Origin: Cupriavidus taiwanensis LMG 19424
GTDB lineage: Bacteria; Pseudomonadota; Gammaproteobacteria; Burkholderiales; Burkholderiaceae
Length of the DNA stretch: 64,000 nucleotides
NCBI RefSeq assembly: GCF_000069785.1
Contig: NC_010528.1
Location: 1,054,001 to 1,118,000 of the forward strand
Direction: 5' to 3'
Made by a program: the position numbers and the translations under genes. Below, piece after piece: positions 28,516 to 42,760 of the stretch; within the stretch, counting starts at the first letter, position 1, and every line of letters starts with the position of its first letter. The notes beneath the pieces were generated by a model. That model saw only the letters and a program-made list of their open reading frames with translations, made no database searches and had not been told where the DNA came from.

Positions 28516-30567
28516 TCAGGGCTTGAACGTGTCCCCCAGCACCACGCCCTCGCGCCGCGGGTCGGCGCCGCCCACCAGCACCGCCGAGCCGCCGATGGTG
28601 GTGCGGATGATCGCGCTCAGCCCGCTGGACTGCGCCGCCGTGTTGACGGTGTGGCCCAGGTTGCGCAGGCCCTTGACCAGCGGGTCGTTGTCGCCTGGCA
28701 GGCCGCCGGCCGGGGTGCTGGTGTCGACGTTGGGATGCTCGCCGCCGACCACCATGGGCGAGCCCGCGCTCGCGTTATTGCCGCCGAAGTCGATCATCGA
28801 GACCGCCTGCTGCGCATCCAGGCCCCAGTCCAGCGAAGCCACCAGGGTCTTGGCGACGAACTGGATGATGGTGGCGCCGCCCGGCGAGCCGGTGGTCATG
28901 TAGAAGTCGCCGCGCGAGCCGTCGCTGTTGCGCCGGAACACCAGGGTCGGCGCCATCGAGCTGCGCGGGCGCTTGCCCGGTTGCAGCCGGTTGGCCACCT
29001 TCACGCCGCCCGGCGCGGGATCGGCATTGAAGTCGGTCAGCTCGTTGTTGAGCAGGAAGCCGTTGGTCATGTGGAACGAGCCCAGGCCGGCCTCGATGGT
29101 GGTGGTCATCGCCACCACGTTGCCGTACTTGTCATGCAGCGACAGGTGCGTGGTGCCGCGCTCCTCCACCATCGACGGCGCCAGCGGCACGTCGCCGAGG
29201 TTGCCCGCCGCCACCGGCGTGACCATCGAGCCGGTGGTGCTGATCAGGCTGGCGCGCTGGCTCAGGTAGGCCTTGTTCAGCATGGTGTCCGGGCTGCCGC
29301 CGGGCAACGGAATGAAGTCGGTGTCGGCCACGTACTTGTTGCGGTCGGCATAGGCCAGGTGGCCGGCCTCGCCCATCAGGTGGGCGCCCAGCACGCTGGG
29401 CCGGCCGCCGTTCTGGTCGACCAGCGTGGGCTTGTGCGCCGCCATGTCGAAGTTCTCGACGATGCCCAGGATCTGCGCCACCGCGATCCCGCCCGAGGAC
29501 GGCGGCGGCATGCCGCACACCTCGTACTGCCGGTAGGTGGTGCACACCGGCGTGCGCTTCTTGGCCTGGTAGTTGGCCAGGTCGTCCAGCGTGGTCACGC
29601 CCGGCGTGGTGTTGCCGTCGTAGGTGGTCTGGATCTTGGCGACGATGGCCTGCGCGATCGGGCCGTTCTTGTAGAAGGCGTCGGCGCCGTCCGCGGCGAC
29701 GGCGCTGAAGACCGCTGCCAGCGCGGGGTTGCGCAGCACGGTGTTGACCGCGCGCGGGGTGCCGTCGGGATTGAGGAAGTAGGCGGCCATTTCCGGATCG
29801 CGCTTGATATTGGCCACGGTGGCGCTGTCCGAGATCGCGGCGGCCATGCGAGGCGGGATCGCAAAGCCGTCGGTGGCCAGCTTGATCGCCGGCGCGAACA
29901 GTTCCTTCCACGCGGTCTTGCCGTAGTCGCGGTGGGCCAGCTCGAGCACGCGCAGCGTGCCGGGGGTGCCGATGGAGCGGCCGCTACGCTGGGCATTGGG
30001 CAGGGGCGTGGTCGGGTCGGCCGCGGACTTCCAGCGCAGGTAGTTCTCGTCGGCGGCGGCCGGGGCGGTCTCGCGGCCGTCGTAGGCGGTGAGCTGCCGC
30101 GTCGCCGCGTCGAAATGCAGGATGAAGGCGCCGCCGCCGATGCCGGACGATTGCGGCTCGACCAGGTTCAGCACCATCTGCGCCGCCACCGCGGCGTCGA
30201 TCGCCGTGCCGCCGGCCTTCAGCACGTCGCATGCCGCCTTGGTCGAGACCGGGTTGTTGGTCACCGCCATATAGGTCTTGCTGTAGACCGTGACCTTGGG
30301 CGCATAGCCGGTTGCCTGCTCCGGCGCGTTGGGGTCGCCCGGCAGCACCACGGCCTGGCCGCCGGTGCTGCCGTCCAGCTCGCAGCCGGCGGTGGGCGTG
30401 ACCGCCGGTGGCGGAGGCGGGGGCGGGGAGTCGTCGCCGCCGCCGCAGGCGCCAAGTGTCAGCGCCAGTGCCGCCAGCGCCAGCTTGCCGCGGCGCGGGC
30501 GCCGGTACGGGTTGGCGTGCGATTGCGGCTCGGCGGTGGATGCGTTGGGGTCGGCAGCGTACGGCAT
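28516..30567 (-). CDS. ggt: Gamma-glutamyltransferase, lipoprotein form (copy 1)
   Basis: Gamma-glutamyltransferases hydrolyse or transfer the gamma-glutamyl group of glutathione and similar compounds outside the cytoplasm. The 683-aa precursor would self-cleave before a Thr. The catalytic motif is GTTHLSLHDKYGNVVAMTTT (Thr near residue 472), and DGRETAP, the SSGIGGGAF loop and CGMPPPSSGGIAVAQ are family sequences. A lipobox LGACGGG (Cys about residue 41) followed by a run of prolines indicates anchoring to a membrane. GGAAGGAG lies upstream of the ATG. A second copy lies at 52897-54777. Confidence 0.92.
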   Translation of the reverse strand: MPYAADPNASTAEPQSHANPYRRPRRGKLALAALALTLGACGGGDDSPPPPPPPAVTPTAGCELDGSTGGQAVVLPGDPNAPEQATGYAPKVTVYSKTYMAVTNNPVSTKAACDVLKAGGTAIDAAVAAQMVLNLVEPQSSGIGGGAFILHFDAATRQLTAYDGRETAPAAADENYLRWKSAADPTTPLPNAQRSGRSIGTPGTLRVLELAHRDYGKTAWKELFAPAIKLATDGFAIPPRMAAAISDSATVANIKRDPEMAAYFLNPDGTPRAVNTVLRNPALAAVFSAVAADGADAFYKNGPIAQAIVAKIQTTYDGNTTPGVTTLDDLANYQAKKRTPVCTTYRQYEVCGMPPPSSGGIAVAQILGIVENFDMAAHKPTLVDQNGGRPSVLGAHLMGEAGHLAYADRNKYVADTDFIPLPGGSPDTMLNKAYLSQRASLISTTGSMVTPVAAGNLGDVPLAPSMVEERGTTHLSLHDKYGNVVAMTTTIEAGLGSFHMTNGFLLNNELTDFNADPAPGGVKVANRLQPGKRPRSSMAPTLVFRRNSDGSRGDFYMTTGSPGGATIIQFVAKTLVASLDWGLDAQQAVSMIDFGGNNASAGSPMVVGGEHPNVDTSTPAGGLPGDNDPLVKGLRNLGHTVNTAAQSSGLSAIIRTTIGGSAVLVGGADPRREGVVLGDTFKP

Positions 30568-30708
30568 GGTTTCTCCTTCCTTTTATGGGGGTCCGGGAAA
30601 TGCGCCACGGCCGGGTCGCAAGGCGCGACCACGGCCAGCTTTCACCGTAGTGCCGCGGAGCGCCGGCCTTAATCATTGAATGTACGGATTTACATGCATT
30701 CGAATCCG

Positions 30709-30730
30709 GGTTTAAGCGTTCGCTTAAACC
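30709..30730. promoter_or_regulatory. Perfect palindrome, candidate operator near ggt
   Basis: GGTTTAAGCG and CGCTTAAACC are exact inverted repeats separated by TT. The symmetry and length suit a dimeric repressor of the TetR or similar type. It is about 140 bases before the ggt start and over 100 bases before the urt enhancer sites, so ggt is the likelier target. Confidence 0.55.
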
Positions 30731-30831
30731 GTGCGCGCCGCCGTGCCGGCACGGCAGCGGGCGCCACGCTGGCGCAAGCTGCGAGCGCGATGCAAGCGCC
30801 ATGCACCGACATCGCCCGCGTCGGCCGATAC

Positions 30832-30846
30832 GCACTGACTCAGTGC
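30832..30846. promoter_or_regulatory. NtrC-like enhancer site 1
   Basis: GCACTGACTCAGTGC matches the NtrC pattern GCACY-N5-RGTGC completely and is a perfect palindrome around a single central base. Its centre is about 130 bases before the predicted sigma-54 start point. Confidence 0.75.
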
Positions 30847-30857
30847 GAGCCAGTGTG

Positions 30858-30872
30858 GCACGGCGATGGTGC
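30858..30872. promoter_or_regulatory. NtrC-like enhancer site 2
   Basis: GCACGGCGATGGTGC matches GCACY-N5-RGTGC at nine of ten positions. Its centre is 26 bases from that of site 1 and about 104 bases before the predicted start point. Confidence 0.6.
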
Positions 30873-30942
30873 GCACGCGCGCGGCAGGCTAGCTTCCGCC
30901 GTACGCGCCGCCTGTGGCCGCGCCGCGGGCGCCATATCGCCG

Positions 30943-30958
30943 TGGCACGCTAGTTGCA
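30943..30958 (+). promoter_or_regulatory. Sigma-54 promoter of the urt-ure operon
   Basis: TGGCACGCTAGTTGCA matches the sigma-54 consensus TGGCACG-N4-TTGCW exactly, with GG (30944-30945) and GC (30956-30957) ten bases apart. Transcription would start near 30969, giving a leader of about 45 bases to urtA, which carries GGGAGC before its ATG. Confidence 0.88.
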
Positions 30959-31014
30959 GATGCATCACCCCGGGGAGCGTAGTCCCTGACCAACACCATA
31001 AACGGGAGCTGCAA

Positions 31015-32271
31015 ATGCAACGACGTGACATGCTGAAGCTGTCGGCGATAGCCGCCGCGGCGATGATCGGTACCAGCCCGCTGGCGCTGGCGCAGTCCAA
31101 GGAGCCGATCAAGGTCGGCATCCTGCATTCGCTGTCCGGCACCATGGCGATCTCCGAGACGTCGCTGAAGGACGTGGCGCTGATGACCATCGACGAGATC
31201 AACAAGAGCGGCGGCGTGCTCGGGCGCAAGCTGGAGCCGGTGGTGGTGGACCCGGCGTCGAACTGGCCGCTGTTCGCCGAGAAGGCGCGCCAGCTGGTGA
31301 GCAAGGACAAGGTCGCGGTGACCTTCGGCTGCTGGACCTCGGTATCGCGCAAGTCGGTGCTGCCGGTCTACGAAGAGCTCAACTCGCTGCTGTTCTACCC
31401 GGTGCAGTATGAAGGCGAGGAAATGTCGAAGAACGTCTTCTACACCGGCGCGGCCCCCAACCAGCAGGCCATCCCCGCGGTCGAGTACCTGATGAGCAAG
31501 GAAGGCGGCGGCGCCAAGCGCTTCTTCCTGCTCGGCACCGACTACGTCTACCCGCGCACCACCAACAAGATCCTGCGCGCCTTCCTGAAGAGCAAGGGCG
31601 TGGCCGACAAGGATATCGAAGAGGTCTACACCCCGTTCGGCCACAGCGACTACCAGACCATCGTCGCCAATATCAAGAAGTTCTCGCAGGGCGGGAAGAC
31701 CGCGGTGATCTCCACCATCAACGGCGATTCCAACGTGCCGTTCTACAAGGAACTGGGCAACGCCGGGCTCAAGGCCAAGGACGTGCCGGTGGTGGCGTTC
31801 TCGGTCGGCGAAGAAGAGCTGCGCGGCATCGACACCAAGCCGCTGGTGGGTCACCTGGCCGCGTGGAACTACTTCATGTCGGTCAAGAACCCCGAGAACG
31901 ATGCGTTCCGCAAGCAGTGGGCGGCGTGGGTCAAGGCCAACACCCTGCCCGGCGGCGACAAGCGCGTGACCAACGACCCGATGGAAGCCACCTACGTGGG
32001 CATCCACATGTGGGCACAAGCGGTGAAGAAAGCCGGCAGCACCGACACCGCCAAGGTGCGCGCGGCCATGTATGGCCAGACCTTCAAGGCGCCGGACGGC
32101 TTCACCCTGACCATGGGCGAGAACCACCACCTGTACAAGCCGGTGATGATCGGCGAGGTCAAGGGCGACGGTCAGTTCGCGGTGGTGTGGAAGACGCCGA
32201 AGCCGGTGCGCGCGCAGCCGTGGAGCCCGTTTATCGCGGGCAATGAAGGGAAGCCGGACAAGGTGATGTAA
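31015..32271 (+). CDS. urtA: Urea ABC transporter, substrate-binding protein
   Basis: UrtA is the periplasmic urea receptor of the high-affinity UrtABCDE importer. The 418-aa precursor starts with a twin-arginine-type signal (QRRDMLKLSAIAAAAMIG, cleavage expected after ALA near residue 26). The mature part has the family sequences LHSLSGTMAISETSLKDV, NSLLFYPVQYEGEE and NYFMSV-PEN, distinguishing it from leucine-binding homologues. The ATG at 31015 was chosen for the signal peptide and the GGGAGC site; the frame is open 113 codons upstream through the promoter region. Confidence 0.95.
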   Translation: MQRRDMLKLSAIAAAAMIGTSPLALAQSKEPIKVGILHSLSGTMAISETSLKDVALMTIDEINKSGGVLGRKLEPVVVDPASNWPLFAEKARQLVSKDKVAVTFGCWTSVSRKSVLPVYEELNSLLFYPVQYEGEEMSKNVFYTGAAPNQQAIPAVEYLMSKEGGGAKRFFLLGTDYVYPRTTNKILRAFLKSKGVADKDIEEVYTPFGHSDYQTIVANIKKFSQGGKTAVISTINGDSNVPFYKELGNAGLKAKDVPVVAFSVGEEELRGIDTKPLVGHLAAWNYFMSVKNPENDAFRKQWAAWVKANTLPGGDKRVTNDPMEATYVGIHMWAQAVKKAGSTDTAKVRAAMYGQTFKAPDGFTLTMGENHHLYKPVMIGEVKGDGQFAVVWKTPKPVRAQPWSPFIAGNEGKPDKVM

Positions 32272-32368: not shown

Positions 32369-34012
32369 ATGCGCAATCCCTTATCCGTTCGAGTCGTGCC
32401 CTGGCTGCGCGCCCTGCTGGCAGCGTTGCTGCTGGCCTCAGCGCCATGGGCCGCCGCGCTGACGCAGGCCGACCTCAAGCCGCTGGCCGGGGACGACTTC
32501 GACGCCAAGACCGCCGCGCTGTCGGCCCTGGCCAAGGCCGCTCCCGCCGCAGCCGGCCCGATCCTGAAAGCGCTGCAGGACGACGCCCTGCAATACGCCC
32601 CGTCGGCCGGCATGGTGCGCCAGGATGGCGACAAGATTGTCGATGCGATCACCGGCCAGCCAGTCACGGTCAAGGCCGACGAACTCGAGTCGCTGACGCT
32701 GAACAACAGCCTGCGCGCGCTGGTCGACAGCGCCGCCAGCAGCCTGCTGCTGCAGTCGCCAGACATCGCCGTGCGCGCGCAGGCGGTGGCCACGCTGCGC
32801 GACCAGCCGGAAAGCGCGTCGCTGCCCGCGGTCGAAGCCGCGCGCAAGACCGAGGCCGATGCCGGCCTGCGCGCCAGCCTGGACGTGATCTGGGCCAACC
32901 TGGTGCTGGCCGGCACGCCCGAGCCCGCCGCGCGCGAAGCGCGCCTCGAAGCCATCGGCATCCTGGGCCGCGACAGCAACCCGCAAAACCGCCAGAAGCT
33001 GGCGCCGCTGGTGGAGCGCGACAGCGCCGGCCGCTACCGCGAGCCCGATAGCAGCGTGCGCCTGGCGGCGCAGCAGGCGCTGGACACGCTGCAGGGCGGC
33101 CAGCGCCGCGCCGAAGTGATCGGCAACCTGTTCGCCGGCCTCAGCCTGGGCAGCGTGCTGCTGCTGGCCGCGCTCGGCCTGGCCATCACCTACGGGCTGA
33201 TCGGCGTCATCAACATGGCCCACGGCGAATTCCTGATGATCGGCGCCTATGCCACCTACGTGGTGCAGTCGCTGTTCCGTGCGCATGCGCCGGGCGCATT
33301 CGACTGGTACCTGCCCGCGGCGCTGCCGGCTTCGTTCCTGGCGGCCGCCCTGGTGGGCTTCGTGCTGGAACGGCTGGTGCTGCGCCACCTGTACGGCCGC
33401 CCGCTGGAAACGCTGCTGGCCACCTTCGGCATCAGCCTGCTGCTGATGCAGGCGGTGCGCACGCTGTTCGGCGCGCAGAACGTGGAAGTGGCCAATCCCG
33501 CATGGATGAGCGGCGGCTTCGAATGGATGCCGGGCCTGGTGATCCCCTACAACCGCGTGGTCATCATCCTGTTCGCGCTGGCGGTGGTGGCGGTGGCGTG
33601 GGCGGTGCTCAACCGCACGCGGCTGGGGCTGTTCGTGCGCGCGACGACGCAGAACCGGACCATGGCGGCGTGCGTCGGCGTGCGTACGTGGCAGGTCGAC
33701 AGCTACGCCTTTGCCTTCGGTGCCGGCATCGCCGGGCTCGGCGGCTGCGCGCTGTCGCAGATCGGCAATGTCGGCCCCGACCTGGGCCAGGCCTACATCA
33801 TCGATTCGTTCATGGTGGTGGTGCTGGGCGGGGTGGGGCAACTGGCCGGCACCATCGTCGGCGCGTTCGGGCTGGGCATCCTCAACAAGTTCATCGAACC
33901 TTTCTATGGCGCGGTGCTGGCCAAGATCCTGGTCCTGGTGCTGATCGTGCTGTTTATCCAGAAGCGGCCGCAGGGACTGTTCGCGCTCAAGGGGCGCAGT
34001 GCGGAGGCATGA
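32369..34012 (+). CDS. urtB: Urea ABC transporter, permease UrtB
   Basis: UrtB is one of the two inner-membrane permeases of the urea importer and belongs to the LivH family. The 547-aa protein has a signal-like N terminus (residues ~1-31), a soluble extension of about 220 residues rich in Ala/Leu repeats resembling HEAT-type helices, and then the permease core from about residue 250 (LITYGLIGVINMAHGEFLMIG, ATTQNRTMAACVGV, VVVLGGVGQLAGTIVGA). The long periplasmic extension is a known trait of UrtB as against LivH. A 97-base gap with the REP-like element separates it from urtA. Confidence 0.94.
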   Translation: MRNPLSVRVVPWLRALLAALLLASAPWAAALTQADLKPLAGDDFDAKTAALSALAKAAPAAAGPILKALQDDALQYAPSAGMVRQDGDKIVDAITGQPVTVKADELESLTLNNSLRALVDSAASSLLLQSPDIAVRAQAVATLRDQPESASLPAVEAARKTEADAGLRASLDVIWANLVLAGTPEPAAREARLEAIGILGRDSNPQNRQKLAPLVERDSAGRYREPDSSVRLAAQQALDTLQGGQRRAEVIGNLFAGLSLGSVLLLAALGLAITYGLIGVINMAHGEFLMIGAYATYVVQSLFRAHAPGAFDWYLPAALPASFLAAALVGFVLERLVLRHLYGRPLETLLATFGISLLLMQAVRTLFGAQNVEVANPAWMSGGFEWMPGLVIPYNRVVIILFALAVVAVAWAVLNRTRLGLFVRATTQNRTMAACVGVRTWQVDSYAFAFGAGIAGLGGCALSQIGNVGPDLGQAYIIDSFMVVVLGGVGQLAGTIVGAFGLGILNKFIEPFYGAVLAKILVLVLIVLFIQKRPQGLFALKGRSAEA

Positions 34013-35220
34013 TGCAGCGATTCCAATCCAACTCTTCCGCCACGCCGTTCCGGCTTGCCGTACCCGAGCGCCAGTCGCTGTTTTCTCCGCGAGGCTGGCT
34101 CGTGCTGCTGGCGCTGACGGCGATTGTCGGCATCGGCGTGCCGGTCTGCGCGCTGCTGGTGCCGGAAGGCCATCCGCTGCACCTGTCGGCGTATGCGCTG
34201 ACGCTGGTCGGCAAGATCATGTGCTTTGCGCTGGCGGCGATCGCGCTCGACCTGGTGTGGGGCTACTGCGGTATCCTCAGCCTCGGCCACGGCCTGTTCT
34301 TCGCGCTGGGCGGCTATGCCATGGGCATGTACCTGATGCGTTCGATCGGGCGCGAAGGCGTGTACAAGAGCGACCTGCCGGACTTCATGGTGTTCCTCGA
34401 CTGGAAAGAGCTGCCGTGGTTCTGGCACGGCACCGACCATCTCGGCTATGCGCTGCTGCTGGTGGTGCTGGTGCCCGGCGTGCTGGCGTGGCTGTTCGGC
34501 TTCTTTGCCTTCCGCTCGCGCATCAAGGGCGTGTACCTGTCGATCATCACGCAGGCGATGACGTACGCGGCCATGCTGCTGTTCTTCCGCAACGAGACCG
34601 GCTTCGGCGGCAACAACGGCTTTACCGACTTCAAGCGCATCGCCGGCTTTGCCATCGCCGCGCCGCAGACGCGCGCGGCGCTGTTCGTGCTGACCTTCCT
34701 CGCACTGCTGGGCGGCTTCGTTGCCTGCCGCTACATCGTGACGTCCAAGCTGGGCCGCGTGGTGACCGCGGTGCGCGATGCCGAGATGCGCGTCATGTTC
34801 TCCGGCTACAGCCCGCTCGGCTACAAGCTGTTCGTGTGGACCTTCTCGGCCGTGCTGTGCGGCATCGCCGGCGCGCTCTACGTGCCGCAGGTCGGCATCA
34901 TCAACCCGGGCGAGATGTCGCCCGGCAACTCGATCGAAATGGCGGTGTGGGTGGCCGTTGGCGGGCGCGGCACGCTGATCGGACCGGTCATCGGCGCGTT
35001 CCTGGTCAATGGCGCCAAGACGCTCTTCACCGCGCACTTTGCCGAATACTGGCTGTTCCTGCTGGGCGCGATGTTCGTGCTGGTGACGCTGTACCTGCCC
35101 GATGGCGTGACCGGCCTGTGGCAGCGCTGGCGCGAGCGCCGCGCGCACGCCGCCACACCCGTGCCAACCGAAGCGGCCGCCACGCCGGCGGTCGCGGGCC
35201 GCACCGGAGGTGAAGCATGA
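34012..35220 (+). CDS. urtC: Urea ABC transporter, permease UrtC
   Basis: UrtC is the second permease (LivM family) of the urea importer. The 402-aa product has about eight to ten hydrophobic helices and the signatures LDLVWGYCGILSLGHGLFFALG, GVYLSIITQAMTYA, ETGFGGNNGFTDF and VAVGGRGTLIGPVIGAFLVN. Two ATG codons in tandem (34009 and 34012) overlap the urtB stop; the second gives better spacing from GGAGG. The C-terminal 30 residues are low-complexity. The gene overlaps urtD by four bases (ATGA). Confidence 0.94.
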   Translation: MQRFQSNSSATPFRLAVPERQSLFSPRGWLVLLALTAIVGIGVPVCALLVPEGHPLHLSAYALTLVGKIMCFALAAIALDLVWGYCGILSLGHGLFFALGGYAMGMYLMRSIGREGVYKSDLPDFMVFLDWKELPWFWHGTDHLGYALLLVVLVPGVLAWLFGFFAFRSRIKGVYLSIITQAMTYAAMLLFFRNETGFGGNNGFTDFKRIAGFAIAAPQTRAALFVLTFLALLGGFVACRYIVTSKLGRVVTAVRDAEMRVMFSGYSPLGYKLFVWTFSAVLCGIAGALYVPQVGIINPGEMSPGNSIEMAVWVAVGGRGTLIGPVIGAFLVNGAKTLFTAHFAEYWLFLLGAMFVLVTLYLPDGVTGLWQRWRERRAHAATPVPTEAAATPAVAGRTGGEA

Positions 35221-36065
35221 ACGCCGCACTCGAACACGGCCAGGCCGAAAGCGGCGATGCCACCGGGCTGGGCCGCGTGCTGGAGCCGGACACCATCGAC
35301 GTGTCGCACGGCCCGATCCTGTACCTGGAAGACCTCACCGTCCAGTTCGACGGCTTCCGCGCGCTCAACAAGCTGAACCTGTCGATCGACCATGGCGAGC
35401 TGCGCTGCGTGATCGGCCCCAACGGCGCGGGCAAGACCACGATGATGGATGTCATCACCGGCAAGACCGGGCCGCGCAATGCCAATGTCAGCGGGCGCGT
35501 GTTCCTCGGGCAGACCATCGACCTGATGCGGATGACCGAGCCGCGCATCGCGCAGGTCGGCATCGGGCGCAAGTTCCAGAAGCCGACCGTGTTCGAGCAG
35601 CACGCGGTGTGGGAGAACCTGGAGCTGGCGATGAAGGCCGACAAGCGCTGGTGGTCGTCGCTGCGCGCGCGGCTCACCGGCGACGGCCATCGCCGCATCG
35701 AGGAGACGCTGGCGCTGACCGGCCTGGAGGACGAGGCGTACCGGCCCGCCGGCCTGCTGTCGCACGGGCAGAAGCAGCGGCTGGAGATCGGCATGTTGCT
35801 GATGCAGCAGCCGCAACTGTTGCTGCTCGATGAACCCGTGGCAGGCATGACCGATGAAGAGACCATGCAGCTGGCCAGCCTGCTCAACGGCCTGCGCGGC
35901 AGCTGCTCGATGATGGTGGTGGAGCACGACATGGAATTCGTCGCCGCGCTGGCCGGCGCTGGCGGCAAGGTCACCGTGCTGGCCGAAGGCAGCGTGCTGG
36001 CCGAAGGCACGCTCGACAGCGTCAAGCGCGACGAACGCGTGATCGAATCCTACCTGGGGAGATAG
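35217..36065 (+). CDS. urtD: Urea ABC transporter, ATP-binding protein UrtD
   Basis: UrtD is one of two ATPase subunits (LivG family). The 282-aa protein has Walker A GPNGAGKTTMMD (about residues 67-78), the signature LSHGQKQRLEIG (about 178-189) and Walker B LLLLDEPVAG (about 198-207). An N-terminal extension of about 30 residues precedes the ABC core. Start at 35217 has GGAGG upstream and overlaps urtC by four bases, indicating translational coupling. Confidence 0.95.
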   Translation: MNAALEHGQAESGDATGLGRVLEPDTIDVSHGPILYLEDLTVQFDGFRALNKLNLSIDHGELRCVIGPNGAGKTTMMDVITGKTGPRNANVSGRVFLGQTIDLMRMTEPRIAQVGIGRKFQKPTVFEQHAVWENLELAMKADKRWWSSLRARLTGDGHRRIEETLALTGLEDEAYRPAGLLSHGQKQRLEIGMLLMQQPQLLLLDEPVAGMTDEETMQLASLLNGLRGSCSMMVVEHDMEFVAALAGAGGKVTVLAEGSVLAEGTLDSVKRDERVIESYLGR

Positions 36066-36067
36066 GC

Positions 36068-36760
36068 ATGCTGCAGGTCAATGCACTGAACCAGTTCTAC
36101 GGCGGCAGCCATATCCTGCGCAACGTTTCCTTCGACGTGCCGGCGGGCAAGCTTACCACGCTGCTCGGCCGCAACGGCGTCGGCAAGAGCACGCTGCTGA
36201 AATGCCTGATGGGCGTGGTGCCGACGCGCAGCGGCAGCATCCACTGGGACGGCAAGCCGCTGGAGAAGAAGGCGCCATACGATCGCGTCTCCGCCGGGCT
36301 GGCCTATGTGCCGCAAGGCCGCGAGATCTTTCCGCGTCTGACGGTCGAAGAGAACCTGCTGATCGGCGCCGCCAGCCGCGCGCGGCCCTCGGGCGTGCCG
36401 GATCGTATCTATCAGCTGTTCCCGGTGCTGCGCACCATGCGCCAGCGCCGCGGCGGCGACCTGTCCGGCGGACAGCAGCAGCAACTGGCGATCGGCCGGG
36501 CGCTGATGAGCGAACCGCAACTGCTGATCCTCGACGAGCCGACCGAGGGTATCCAGCCATCGATCATCCAGGACATCGGCCGCGCGCTGCGGCTGCTGGT
36601 GGACGAGTTCGGCATGACGGTGCTGCTGGTCGAGCAGTATTACGAGTTCGCGCGCCATATCGCCGACCACTATGTGGTAATGAGCCGGGGCGAGGTGGTC
36701 GCGCGCGGTGCCGGGGCCAGCATGGAGCAGGACGGCGTACGGGAGCTGATTGCCGTGTAA
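36068..36760 (+). CDS. urtE: Urea ABC transporter, ATP-binding protein UrtE
   Basis: UrtE is the second ATPase subunit (LivF family). The 230-aa protein has Walker A GRNGVGKSTLLK (about residues 34-45), signature LSGGQQQQLAIGRAL (about 135-149) and Walker B LLILDEPTEGI. It starts two bases after urtD with GGGGAGA upstream. ureD follows after 110 bases without a visible terminator, so the transporter and urease genes are probably co-transcribed. Confidence 0.95.
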   Translation: MLQVNALNQFYGGSHILRNVSFDVPAGKLTTLLGRNGVGKSTLLKCLMGVVPTRSGSIHWDGKPLEKKAPYDRVSAGLAYVPQGREIFPRLTVEENLLIGAASRARPSGVPDRIYQLFPVLRTMRQRRGGDLSGGQQQQLAIGRALMSEPQLLILDEPTEGIQPSIIQDIGRALRLLVDEFGMTVLLVEQYYEFARHIADHYVVMSRGEVVARGAGASMEQDGVRELIAV

Positions 36761-36870
36761 GGGTGGAACGGGGATTGCGCACCGCACATCGCTTTTCGCC
36801 CAGGCGGGCGACGCGTTATGATTGCCTGCAACCCCCGCCATCGCGCGCCCGCCGCCGGCATTGCCACGCC

Positions 36871-37740
36871 ATGCGTCATCCCGATTTTCCTTCGTCACTC
36901 GCCGTGACTGCCGCATGGCAGGCCAGCCTGCGGCTGCGCTTTGCGCAACGCGGCGACCGCACCGCGCTGGTCGAGCGCCGCCACCAGGGGCCGCTGCTGG
37001 TGCAGAAGCCGCTGTACCCGGAAGGCCCCATCTGCCATGCCGTGATCCTGCATCCGCCCGCTGGCGTGGCGGGTGGCGACAGCCTGGATATCGAAGTGAC
37101 GGTCGAGGCCGGCGCCCACGCGGTGCTGGCCACGCCGGGCGCTACCAAGTGGTACAAGTCGCTCGGCCGCGACGCGGCGCAGCAGGTGCGGCTGACGGTC
37201 GGGGCCGGCGCGCGGCTGGACTGGCTGCCGCAGGAGAACATCGTCTTTGACGATGCGCGCGCGCGGATTTCGACCGTGCTCGACGTGGCGCCGGGCGGCA
37301 GTGCGATCGGCTGGGATGCCGTGGTGCTGGGCCGGCAGGCATCGGGCGAGCAGTGGGCACGCGGCGCGCTGTGGCTCGATACACGCGTCGGCGCCGGCGA
37401 GCGCGCGTTGTGGATCGAACAGTCGCATCTCGATGCGCAATCGCCGCTGCGCACGGCGGTGGCGGGACTGGACGGGCTCAATGTGCTGGGCACGCTATGG
37501 GCGGTGGGCGAGGGCGCCACGCAGCAACTGGCGGAAGCGCTGGCGGAGCAGTTGCCCTATGGGCCGGAACTGCGCGCGGGCGTGACCTGCCTGGCAGCCC
37601 ATGGCCGCTCGATGCTGCTGGTGCGCGTGCTCGGCCGGCAGATGGAGGCCGTGCGCCATGTGATGGTCGACAGCTGGAGCGCGCTGCGCGAGCCGATGCA
37701 CGGCGTGGCGGCGCGGCCGCTGCGGCTGTGGGCAACTTAG
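36871..37740 (+). CDS. ureD: Urease accessory protein UreD
   Basis: UreD is a scaffold of the nickel-insertion complex (UreD-UreF-UreG) that binds the urease apoenzyme. The 289-aa protein has the family stretches EGPICHAVILHPPAGVAGGD and ATKWYKSLG followed by WLPQENIVFD. The ATG at 36871 begins MRHPDFPSSLAVTAAW; the open frame upstream is a shadow of urtE. A weak TATGAT element at 36817-36822 could give a secondary promoter but has no good -35. ureA follows after 39 bases. Confidence 0.93.
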   Translation: MRHPDFPSSLAVTAAWQASLRLRFAQRGDRTALVERRHQGPLLVQKPLYPEGPICHAVILHPPAGVAGGDSLDIEVTVEAGAHAVLATPGATKWYKSLGRDAAQQVRLTVGAGARLDWLPQENIVFDDARARISTVLDVAPGGSAIGWDAVVLGRQASGEQWARGALWLDTRVGAGERALWIEQSHLDAQSPLRTAVAGLDGLNVLGTLWAVGEGATQQLAEALAEQLPYGPELRAGVTCLAAHGRSMLLVRVLGRQMEAVRHVMVDSWSALREPMHGVAARPLRLWAT

Positions 37741-37779: not shown

Positions 37780-38082
37780 ATGGAACTGACGCCGAGAGAG
37801 AAGGACAAGCTGCTGATCTTTACCGCCGCGCTGCTGGCCGAACGGCGCAAGGCGCGCGGGCTCAAGCTCAACTATCCGGAAGCGGTGGCGCTGATCACCG
37901 CCGCCATCATGGAGGGCGCGCGCGACGGTCGCACCGTGGCCGAGCTGATGCACGAAGGCACCACCGTGCTGACGCGAGAAGACGTGATGGACGGCATCGC
38001 CGAGATGATCCCCGAGATCCAGGTGGAAGCGACGTTCCCCGACGGCACCAAGCTGGTGACCGTGCACCACCCCATTGTCTGA
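37780..38082 (+). CDS. ureA: Urease subunit gamma
   Basis: UreA is the small gamma subunit of the nickel urease (UreABC)3. The 100-aa length is standard and the sequence [20 protein letters not shown], the [21 protein letters not shown] helix and the C-terminal [14 protein letters not shown] are canonical. A GGGAACGAGAGAG stretch lies before the ATG. It is separated from ureB by a hupE/ureJ-type gene. Confidence 0.97.
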
Positions 38083-38128
38083 GTATGCATTGATCACCGA
38101 AGCCGATAACACTTCCAATTCCAATCCG

Positions 38129-38749
38129 ATGACCGCGATGACCCGTACCGCTTGCCTGCGCCTTGCCCTGGGCGCTTCCCTGACCGTTGCCGCCGGCGCC
38201 GCGCTGGCGCATCCCGGCCACGACGCCGCCACCGTCGGCGCCAGCCTGTGGGCGGGCCTGGCGCACCCGTTCACCGGCGCCGACCACCTGCTGGCGATGG
38301 CCGCGGTGGGCGTATGGAGCGCACTGGTGGCGCGCTCCGCCGCCGATACGCTGCGCCTGCCGCTGGCTTTCGTGGGCTTGATGCTGGTGGGCGCCGCGCT
38401 CGGCCTCTCCGGCATGGCGCTGCCCGCGGTGGAGCCGATGATCGCGGCTTCGCTGCTGGTGATCGGTGTGCTGCTGGCGCTGCGCGCAAAGTTGCCGGCA
38501 TGGGCCGGCACGCTGCTGGTGGGCGGCTTTGCCGTGTTCCATGGCTACGCGCATGGCGCCGAACTGCCCGCCAGCGCGGGCGCGCTGCCGGCGGTGCTGG
38601 CCTACGTGGGCGGCTTCGCCGCGGCGACCATGGCGTTGCACCTGCTGGGCATCGGCGCCGGCACGCTGCTGCGCCGCCGTGCCGGCTGGCTGGCGCGCGC
38701 GGCCGGCGCCGGCGTGGCGCTGTACGGCGCCGGCCTGCTGGTGGCCTGA
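38129..38749 (+). CDS. HupE/UreJ family membrane protein, probable nickel transporter
   Basis: A 206-aa membrane protein with an N-terminal signal ending in LAHPGHD and about six further hydrophobic helices. The motif [16 protein letters not shown] (about residues 43-58) is the metal-binding signature of the HupE/UreJ family, thought to move Ni2+. Location between ureA and ureB supports a role in nickel supply to urease. The start is uncertain: ATG codons at 38129 and 38138 both fit, and neither has a Shine-Dalgarno; a TTG at 38075 overlapping ureA is also open. Confidence 0.85.
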
Positions 38750-38760
38750 GGAGGACCGCC

Positions 38761-39065
38761 ATGATCCCCGGTGAACTGATGCCCGCCGACGGCGAGATCG
38801 AACTCAACGCCGGCCGCGCCACCGTCAGCGTGACCGTGGCCAATACCGGCGACCGGCCGATCCAGGTCGGCTCGCACTTCCACTTCTACGAAACCAACGC
38901 CGCACTGGCATTCGAGCGCGAGGCCGCGCGCGGCTTCCGCCTGAACATCGCCGCGGGCACCGCCGTGCGGTTCGAGCCCGGGCAGACCCGCACCGTGGAA
39001 CTGGTGGCGCTGGCGGGCGACCGCATCGTCTACGGCTTCAACGGCAAGATCATGGGAGCGCTGTG

Positions 39066-39066
<1 letters not shown>
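38761..39066 (+). CDS. ureB: Urease subunit beta
   Basis: UreB is the beta subunit of urease. The 101-aa protein starts [16 protein letters not shown] and has the canonical [11 protein letters not shown] motif (about residues 36-46) and the [17 protein letters not shown] segment. A GAGGAG site is seven bases before the ATG. The stop overlaps the ureC start by one base (TGATG), so the two are translationally coupled. Confidence 0.97.
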
Positions 39067-40781
<1,715 letters not shown>

Positions 40782-40807: not shown

Positions 40808-41428
40808 ATGCCGATGCTGAAGATCGATAAAGTCCTCGCCGCTCCGCACGGCATTGCCAGCGTGCTGGTGCGCCGCGCACCCAAGCTGGTGCTGCCGTTC
40901 GCCGACCGCAGCAAGAGCCGCCTGCGCGCGGTGCTCGACAACGGTGCAGACGCCGCGCTGTTCCTGCCTCGCGGCACCGTGCTGCGCGGCGGCGACCTGC
41001 TGGTGGCGGAAGACGGCAGTTTCGTCGAGGTCCGGGCCGCCGCCGAGTCCGTGCTGGAAGTCCGCGCGCAAGATCCGCACGCGCTGATGCGCGCGGCCTA
41101 CCACCTCGGCAACCGCCACACGCCGGTGGAGATCGGCCGCGACTACCTGCGGCTCGAATACGACGCGGTGCTGGCCGACATGCTGCGGCGGCTGGGCGTG
41201 CTTGCGGAGCGTGCCGAACTGCCGTTCGAGCCGGAGGCGGGCGCCTATGGCGGCGGGCACAAGCATGGACACGATGCGACGTTCGCGGAGGATTATGCGG
41301 CGGCGCAGGCGGTGTTTCATGAGCATCATGGGCACTCGCACTCGCACTCGCACTCGCACTCGCATGGTCATGAGGGCGAGCATGTCCATGGGGAGCAAAC
41401 CGTCGCCGATCCCCCGACCCGCCCATGA
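40808..41428 (+). CDS. ureE: Urease accessory protein UreE (nickel chaperone, His-rich tail)
   Basis: UreE delivers Ni2+ to the UreG/UreDF complex. The 206-aa protein has the peptide-binding N-terminal domain (residues ~1-75), a metal-binding domain with [13 protein letters not shown] (about residues 97-109), and a long His-rich tail. Within the tail, five exact copies of the hexanucleotide CACTCG (41333-41362) encode alternating His-Ser. It overlaps ureF by four bases (ATGA). Confidence 0.95.
41333..41362 (+). repeat. Tandem hexanucleotide repeat in ureE
   Basis: Five perfect units of CACTCG in frame, giving five His-Ser pairs in the nickel-binding tail. Such repeats can change copy number by slippage without a frameshift. 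Confidence 0.9.
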
Positions 41429-42117
41429 CCGGCCTCCACCAACTCATCTCCCTTCTGCACCTCGCATCCCCCGCCTTGCCCATCGGCGGCTTCAGCTATT
41501 CGCAAGGCCTCGAGGCCGCGATCGAATGCGGCAGCGTGCATGACGCCCCCACGGCCGAGCGCTGGATCGGCGACAACCTGCGGCATGTCCAGGCGCAATG
41601 CGAGGCGCCGTTATGGCTGCTGCTGCATCGCCACTGGCAGGCGGGCGATGCCGTGCGGGTGCGGAGCTGGAACGACTGGTTCCACGCCACCCGCGAGACC
41701 TCCGAGTTGCGGCTGGAGACCGAGCAGATGGGCTGGTCGCTGGCCCGGCTGATCGCGCAGATGGAATGGGGTACGCCCGCATTGCGCGAGACCCTGGCCG
41801 CGCTGTCGCCCGTGTGCCTGCCGACCGCCTTCACCGCTGCCTGCGTGGCGCTGGAGATCGGCGCGCGCGACGGTCTGGCCGCCTACTGCTTCAACTGGGC
41901 CGAGAACCAGGTGGCCGCGGCGATCAAGGCGGTGCCGCTGGGGCAGGTGGCGGGGCAGCACATGCTGCGCCGGCTGCATGGCGCCGTGCTCGACACCGTC
42001 GACGAAGCCTGTCGCCGCGCCGAGGCCACGCCGCCGCAACTGTCGACGTTTTCCCCGATGCTGGGCCTGCTGTGCGCACGCCACGAAACGCAGTACTCCC
42101 GGCTGTTCCGATCCTGA
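41425..42117 (+). CDS. ureF: Urease accessory protein UreF
   Basis: UreF joins UreD and UreG in the nickel-insertion complex and gates GTP hydrolysis. The 230-aa all-helical protein begins with [24 protein letters not shown], a family signature, and has [15 protein letters not shown] and [22 protein letters not shown] at the C terminus. It overlaps ureE by four bases; ureG starts 13 bases after its stop. Confidence 0.95.
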
Positions 42118-42130
42118 ACCGATTACCACC

Positions 42131-42756
<626 letters not shown>

Positions 42757-42760
<4 letters not shown>

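Follow-up and report, generated by a model that had tools for sequence, protein, structure and literature searches.

Two NtrC-type sites about half a helical turn out of phase upstream of the urea genes of Cupriavidus taiwanensis and most of its relatives

Nitrogen control of genes for urea uptake and urease is ordinary and unsurprising, and the type of switch involved is well known. The glnAp2 promoter of Escherichia coli carries two GCAC-N7-GTGC sites ∼90-120 bp upstream of a -24/-12 element. These are 32 bp apart, about three whole helical turns, and the assembly of the NtrC ring on DNA is usually pictured from near-whole-turn pairs such as this one. The need of urea genes for NtrC or RpoN has been described in several other bacteria. 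In the available portions of the respective papers, an ntrC mutant of Burkholderia cenocepacia did not grow on urea and showed listed urt and ure genes decreased by log2 4.2 to 7.8 (PMC5491218), an rpoN mutant of Paraburkholderia phymatum did not grow on urea and had genes for urea transport among its top-ranked expression changes when starved of nitrogen (PMC5748707), an ntrC mutant of Pseudomonas stutzeri did not grow on urea (PMC8443478), and a comparative study included urt and ure genes in the NtrC regulons of several other orders (PMC5343134). For sigma-54 enhancers of a different kind, the accessible text of a further study reports loop lengths ∼11 bp apart at the LuxO-dependent qrr genes of Vibrio, read as tolerance of whole turns (PMC4740811). 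That observation concerns loop length to a tandem of sites, and pairs of sites half a turn apart, unlike at urt, are not described in that text. The same source describes synthetic enhancers in which the effect on looping differs between proteins bound in phase inside the loop and those bound half a turn away outside it.

The stretch of DNA analyzed here (the window, 64,000 nucleotides) contains a 447-bp intergenic region (30568-31014) with urtA on one side, its ATG at 31015, and a divergent gamma-glutamyltransferase-like gene on the other (28516-30567; TIGR00066, 339.5 bits, just below the cut-off of 357.85). Three elements on the plus strand define the predicted control region of urtA. The distal NtrC-type site, site A (GCACTGACTCAGTGC, 30832..30846), is a perfect 15-bp palindrome. 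The proximal site, site B (GCACGGCGATGGTGC, 30858..30872), has perfect GCAC/GTGC arms and an imperfect middle. Both conform to GCAC-N7-GTGC, as at glnAp2, but here 26 bp separates the start of one from that of the other, about 2.5 helical turns. The sigma-54 promoter (-24/-12), TGGCACG-CTAG-TTGCA (TGGCACGCTAGTTGCA, 30943..30958), begins 72 bp before urtA and is the sole exact match to TGGCACG-N4-TTGC[AT] in the window. The two strict sites start 85 and 111 bp from the -24 element, and 70 bp separates site B from the promoter element. Counting ∼12 bases past the GC of the -12 element, the predicted transcription start is ∼30969, which puts the site centers at ∼-104 and ∼-130. A prior sequence-only reading had proposed an exact sigma-54 match preceded by one perfect and one near-perfect palindrome at these distances, and both proposals were borne out. 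The extent it gave to the control region, 30832-30958, does cover these elements, but a conserved GCACC half-site (30803-30807) falls just upstream. This is the left half of a weak third NtrC-like site on the plus strand (30803..30817; matrix score 7.9), the right half of which is degenerate, located 29 bp upstream of A and 55 bp upstream of B. Elsewhere in the intergenic region, positions 30709-30730 form a 10-bp inverted repeat with a 2-base loop, possibly belonging to the control region of the divergent gene.

Single GCAC-N7-GTGC sites are unremarkable, with 6 in the window versus 4.69 expected, and sigma-54 matches with two mismatches number 8 versus 16.5 expected. As a group, two sites plus a sigma-54 element exceed chance. 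When the 447-bp region was shuffled 20,000 times with dinucleotides preserved, 11 shuffles had at least two GCAC-N7-GTGC sites, 23 had the TGGCAC-N5-TTGC core, and none combined the core with two sites. Strict pairs with 0-30 bases between them occur at two places in the whole genome of 6.48 Mb (6,476,522 bases, 3 contigs); the second, at C1:1466955 with a spacing of 23 bp, lies by reading within coding sequence and was not counted as a promoter pair. Another exact sigma-54 element was seen at a separate locus, G000:C1:257614-260628 (L006), before an open frame resembling an exported protein and ∼1.5 kb upstream of an amtB-type gene; the best NtrC-type site there is 277 bp away.

Control of the urea genes by NtrC and sigma-54 is very likely. 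The genome has a single TIGR02395 match for RpoN (485.7 bits, cut-off 277.35), and a gene near glnA matches TIGR01818 for NtrC at 687.7 bits (neighbor included in the frame; cut-off 558.6). Mutants of Alcaligenes eutrophus in rpoN (hno) were reportedly described in the 1980s as defective in urea use. An NtrC matrix was built from 84 distinct urt site sequences of the genus, with at most one arm mismatch, and made symmetric. When this matrix was applied upstream of glnA of E. coli K-12, two positions alone scored above 4 upstream of the sigma-54 element (18.2 and 16.8); they are 32 bp apart, 121 and 89 bp from that element, and we take them to be the known NtrC sites of glnAp2. The same matrix finds sites upstream of glnA in this genus. 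The assignment to NtrC and sigma-54 made in the sequence-only reading is thus supported by motif quality and by conservation of the sigma-54 element in the genus, as well as by the NtrC gene, the single RpoN and the ntrC and rpoN mutants of other proteobacteria. Since PF00158 has 24 matches in this genome (18 strong), a different sigma-54 activator might bind the palindromes. This is improbable, however, since the sites resemble those of E. coli glnAp2 and of glnA in the same genome, and since mutation of ntrC lowers the orthologous transcripts in B. cenocepacia, according to the available text of PMC5491218.

The genes flanking the region in the window are divergent, which raises a further alternative: either A or B might serve the gamma-glutamyltransferase-like gene, such that the pair would be two single enhancers placed back to back. 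The divergent neighbor, whole or partial, was found in 15 of the 59 genomes with an examined urtA upstream region (0.3-2.3 kb upstream examined), versus two strict sites in 51 of 59, and the minus strand of the intergenic region in the window holds no sigma-54 consensus match at two mismatches or fewer. The back-to-back explanation is accordingly regarded as very improbable, even more so than a different activator.

Downstream of the promoter, urtABCDE and ureDABCEFG lie on one strand (plus), with a family match for each gene. The transport genes are urtA, for the substrate-binding protein of the urea ABC transporter (31015..32271; TIGR03407, 597.7 bits, cut-off 492.75), urtB (32369..34012; TIGR03409, 426.9 bits, cut-off 250.3), urtC (34009..35220; assigned by position and PF02653, a general permease family, at 132.8 bits, with its start inferred from translation), urtD (35217..36065; TIGR03411, 356.2 bits, cut-off 304.1) and urtE (36068..36760; TIGR03410, 342.6 bits, cut-off 285.8). 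They are followed by ureD (36871..37740; PF01774, 193 bits, start likewise deduced), ureA for the urease gamma subunit (37780..38082; TIGR00193, 177.4 bits, cut-off 82.3), a ureJ-like gene of the HupE/UreJ family (38075..38749; PF04955, 189.4 bits, start codon uncertain), ureB for the beta subunit (38761..39066; NF009682, 169.5 bits, residues 204-304 of frame 38152-39066), ureC for the alpha subunit (39063..40781; TIGR01792, 976.6 bits, cut-off 680), ureE (40808..41428; NF009762, 331.1 bits, cut-off 221), ureF (41425..42117; PF01730, 145.4 bits, no NCBIfam match) and ureG (42164..42760; TIGR00101, 326.8 bits, cut-off 204.2, residues 63-256 of the frame; start approximate, within open frame 41978-42760). 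The gene list of the sequence-only reading was therefore confirmed for the genes it named, but it had omitted the ureJ-like gene at 38075-38749. From the function of its family, this gene between ureA and ureB may be concerned with nickel uptake.

Transcription of all ∼11.8 kb from one promoter is plausible. The gap between urtE and ureD is 110 bp in the window and ∼20-45 bases in 6 of 20 relatives (G056, G018, G021, G023, G057 and G055), as read from the gap sequences; its near loss in these six fits co-transcription, without proving it. A candidate internal sigma-54 promoter for urease in this gap (TGGAACGGGGATTGCG, 36764-36779) has two mismatches and was taken as chance; judged by best gap scores and gap reading, the element is not kept in most of the 20 relatives, with a similar stretch in G025 and G026. 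The same gap (36761-36870) has TATGAT behind a GC-rich stretch, as do 11 of the 20 relatives with gaps read by eye, which makes it a possible sigma-70-type start of urease transcription.

The scan of related genomes covered 60 genomes of the genus. A search with UrtA gave a strong match in 59 and a weak match only in G048 (54% complete), and all 59 urtA upstream regions were examined, including that of G043, in which urtA was matched in two pieces. The sigma-54 element agrees with the consensus at 12 of 12 positions in 52 of 59 genomes and at 11 of 12 in the other 7. Two strict GCAC-N7-GTGC sites were present in 51 of 59, spaced by 26 bp (30 genomes), 46 bp (11), 36 bp (9) or 25 bp (1). The linkers vary widely in sequence and yet have a length of 11, 21 or 31 bases, with one of 10. 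The promoter-side half of site B reads TGGTGC in all 51 two-site genomes and in 2 of the 8 one-site genomes, a count in which GTGC is set by the search rule and TG is not. Six of these eight (G059, G035, G052, G011, G009 and G012) have a second site, with one arm mismatch, at 26 or 36 bp. In the remaining two, G013 and G049, no half-turn pair is evident. The strongest second site lies about seven whole turns from the proximal one, at 73 and 74 bp, and weaker sites lie at 55 and 34 bp. A search for an IHF-like WATCAANNNNTTR in up to 600 bp upstream of urtA (338 bp for G046) gave no hit in any of the 59 genomes.

The strict 26-bp pair was found in 31 of 60 genomes, and a reversed control pattern gave 0 matches. 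It occurs once each in 30 genomes, the same 30 that have the 26-bp spacing at urt. The 26-bp pair mimic in G049 is a 13-bp tandem repeat (G049:C11:487319-487398). Strict pairs spaced by 27-35 bp were detected in 3 of 60 genomes; those of G017 and G049 (30 bp) lie upstream of glnA with a sigma-54 element, and the third, in G036, has only weak sigma-54 matches nearby (8/12).

The arrangement kept by most relatives, in which two NtrC-type sites would face opposite sides of the helix, is unusual. A pair near whole turns is a common, though not strictly defining, trait of NtrC enhancers and is not seen at urt, where the spacings of 25, 26, 36 and 46 bp in the 51 two-site genomes are near half-integral turns. 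The sequence-only reading also called the 26-bp spacing, at ∼2.5 turns, unusual for NtrC. The genus bears this out, with 26, 36 or 46 bp in 50 of the 51 and a 30-bp pair in front of glnA in all 30 genomes examined there. Distances to the promoter are equally structured. The start of the proximal site falls in clusters at 55, 65, 75-76, 84-87, 96-98 and 107 bp from the -24 element, and that of the distal site at 91, 102, 110-113, 121-122 and 132-134 bp. On a maximum-likelihood urtA tree, the spacing class changed at least 5 times (6 if 25 bp is its own class), and the distance cluster at least 11 times for the proximal and 10 times for the distal site. Using one median value per single-state clade, the circular concentration at 10.5 bp per turn was 0.97 for the spacing and 0.93 for each of the proximal and distal distances. 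Simulations under a uniform null, with one draw more than the number of changes, reached the observed concentration in 1.1e-4 of runs for the spacing and in 0 of 400,000 for each promoter distance; at 10.0 and 11.0 bp per turn the fractions were 2.5e-6 to 2.6e-3. These values call for some reserve: the distance measures depend on one another, a simple null was used, and testing came after the pattern had been seen. Sites A and B each keep their helical register with the promoter in the genus, at two values (2.2 and 7.0 bp modulo 10.5) that differ by 4.8 bp, approximately half a turn. The E. coli glnAp2 sites, at 5.0-5.5 bp, lie between these registers and are uninformative as to which face is usual.

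It might be argued that this is an ordinary NtrC enhancer in which facing hardly matters, flexible linkers allowing dimers on either face to enter one ring, and that 26, 36 and 46 bp are an inherited layout without function. All compared genomes do belong to one genus, and a review, in the part available, notes for glnALG that facing may matter less owing to flexible activation domains (PMC7408454). The same text (PMC7408454) nevertheless refers to Minchin et al. 1989 for the NtrC enhancer of Klebsiella pneumoniae nifLA as a case of activation that depends on helical facing. Were facing indifferent, insertions and deletions of 3-8 bp should have spread the spacings, but the changes of spacing on the tree, five at the least, all land 10 or 20 bp apart, and the 10-11 shifts in distance from the promoter end up near whole turns. 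Indifferent facing is therefore considered unlikely, although less so than the explanations discussed above.

The glnA gene offers an internal comparison. It was found in 59 of 60 genomes, and the upstream regions of 30 were read. Like urt, the glnA enhancer of the genus has the same motif and a sigma-54 element; unlike urt, it has a 30-bp pair, present in 30 of 30 examined regions when sites scoring at least 9 are considered. No pair at 25-27, 36 or 46 bp was found among such sites in these 30 regions, and other gaps between neighboring glnA sites include 41, 19, 24, 28 and 13 bp. In the genome of the window, the glnA sites stand at distances of 197 and 167 bp from their -24 element. The NtrC-type sites of glnA occur in exact 30-bp steps, with three in a row in some genomes. 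Given the 30-bp pairs at glnA and the occurrence of strict 26-bp pairs almost only at urt, the same activator probably uses both geometries, near-whole-turn at glnA and near-half-turn at urt.

Weaker half-sites, reading GCACC or, on the right-hand side, GGTGC, recur in the genus at 15-70 bp upstream of site A or its counterpart. GCACC is found 29 bp from the distal site in 16 of the 30 genomes whose pair is spaced by 26 bp, and also in the single genome with 25 bp. Among genomes with 36-bp spacing, 6 of 9 have a half-site 17 bp upstream of the distal site, and for the 46-bp spacing half-sites occur at 18, 39 and 59 bp in 7, 7 and 8 of 11 genomes, those at 59 bp being mostly GGTGC. Measured from the proximal site, recurrent positions are 55 (16 genomes), 53 (6), 64 (7), 85 (7) and 105 bp (8). 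The 69 half-sites of the 51 genomes tend towards whole-turn distances from the proximal site (R 0.70, phase 1.0 bp), as do the 26 unique positions (R 0.54, phase 0.6 bp); that of the window, 55 bp from site B, is 2.5 bp off whole turns. In the clade of G013, G036, G049 and four G009-type genomes, upstream sites are likewise present, 73, 74, 74 and 62 bp from the proximal site, respectively. This suggests that one face would carry B with the weaker sites behind it and the other face A, with the weight of the pattern limited by shared ancestry.

The same half-sites can be explained differently. As the half-sites are near whole turns from B (R 0.70 for all 69), B and these may be the working unit, all on one face, and A an extra with a separate job such as tuning or limiting output. 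G013 and G049 fit such an explanation, in that they keep an upstream site (73 and 74 bp) without a clear half-turn site. By contrast, the half-sites are shared mainly within clades, so that independent cases are few, and the recurrent 62-bp position (3 genomes) and several single ones fit less well. Site A is moreover a strict palindrome in 51 of 59 genomes, which is strong for a minor site. A one-faced working set is a tentative alternative, the most serious of those considered, and we do not favor it over a two-faced enhancer.

Outside the genus, the layout of the control region differs. Burkholderia-type promoters often have one clear site and some have none, and their sites are commonly 91-93, 103, 111-114 or 124-125 bp from the promoter. 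The best sites tend towards one register (R 0.67 for n = 34), less so when unique values are taken (R 0.47, simulated p ∼0.02), and their phase of 8.2 is nearer the distal register of Cupriavidus. Across 71 loci of other genera, 27 gaps between neighboring sites were counted, of which 18 deviated from whole turns by no more than 2 bp and 5 from half turns by the same margin. These figures were obtained at a permissive threshold, with many close relatives among the loci and no more than a weak sigma-54 match at 6 of the 71. This differing layout, together with the 2 of 59 genomes (G013 and G049) that have no clear half-turn pair, counts against a two-faced reading. A literature search of limited coverage turned up no study of NtrC pairs half a turn apart or of this genus's urt promoter, which is weak evidence of novelty, and term searches of the available text of PMC7264223 and PMC10274813 gave nothing on site spacing.

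We assign a probability of roughly 0.7 to the reading of this locus as a nitrogen-control region for urea uptake and urease that works through an NtrC ring and sigma-54, with a two-faced enhancer under selection. The DNA parts and their conservation were observed directly; binding, looping and activation would proceed by analogy with the known mechanism of NtrC and the mutants of other bacteria. When nitrogen is scarce, NtrB would phosphorylate NtrC, dimers of which would bind both palindromes and assemble an AAA+ ring. The DNA from site B to the -24/-12 element, 70 bp in length, would loop out, and sigma-54 RNA polymerase would be remodeled to start at ∼30969, upstream of urtA. Given that the loop is short, fixed angular positions are expected. 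The spacings of 26, 36 or 46 bp leave the two main sites approximately half a turn out of phase with one another, each in a fixed register with the promoter, and selection would keep B with its weaker half-sites about whole turns upstream, and A between them on the opposite face. The dimer on that face could complete the ring across the DNA, or it could sit outside the loop and favor looping. By comparison with the synthetic enhancers (PMC4740811, available text), an NtrC dimer half a turn away fits the outside-loop class, with a ring across the DNA as the other possibility.

That opposite faces are a grammar of the enhancer and not a defect, such that the urea promoter of the genus would have a two-faced NtrC enhancer with selected sites shifting almost only by whole turns, is judged from sequence comparison to stand at about even odds. 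If true, such a grammar would clamp the DNA inside the NtrC assembly or set a dimer outside the loop to promote looping. The spacings of 26, 36 and 46 bp form a natural series beside the 30-bp pairs, with one and the same protein probably acting on both within a cell, so that small insertions could test the geometry, and the turnover of sites in whole helical turns would provide a sequence fingerprint for recognizing working enhancers.
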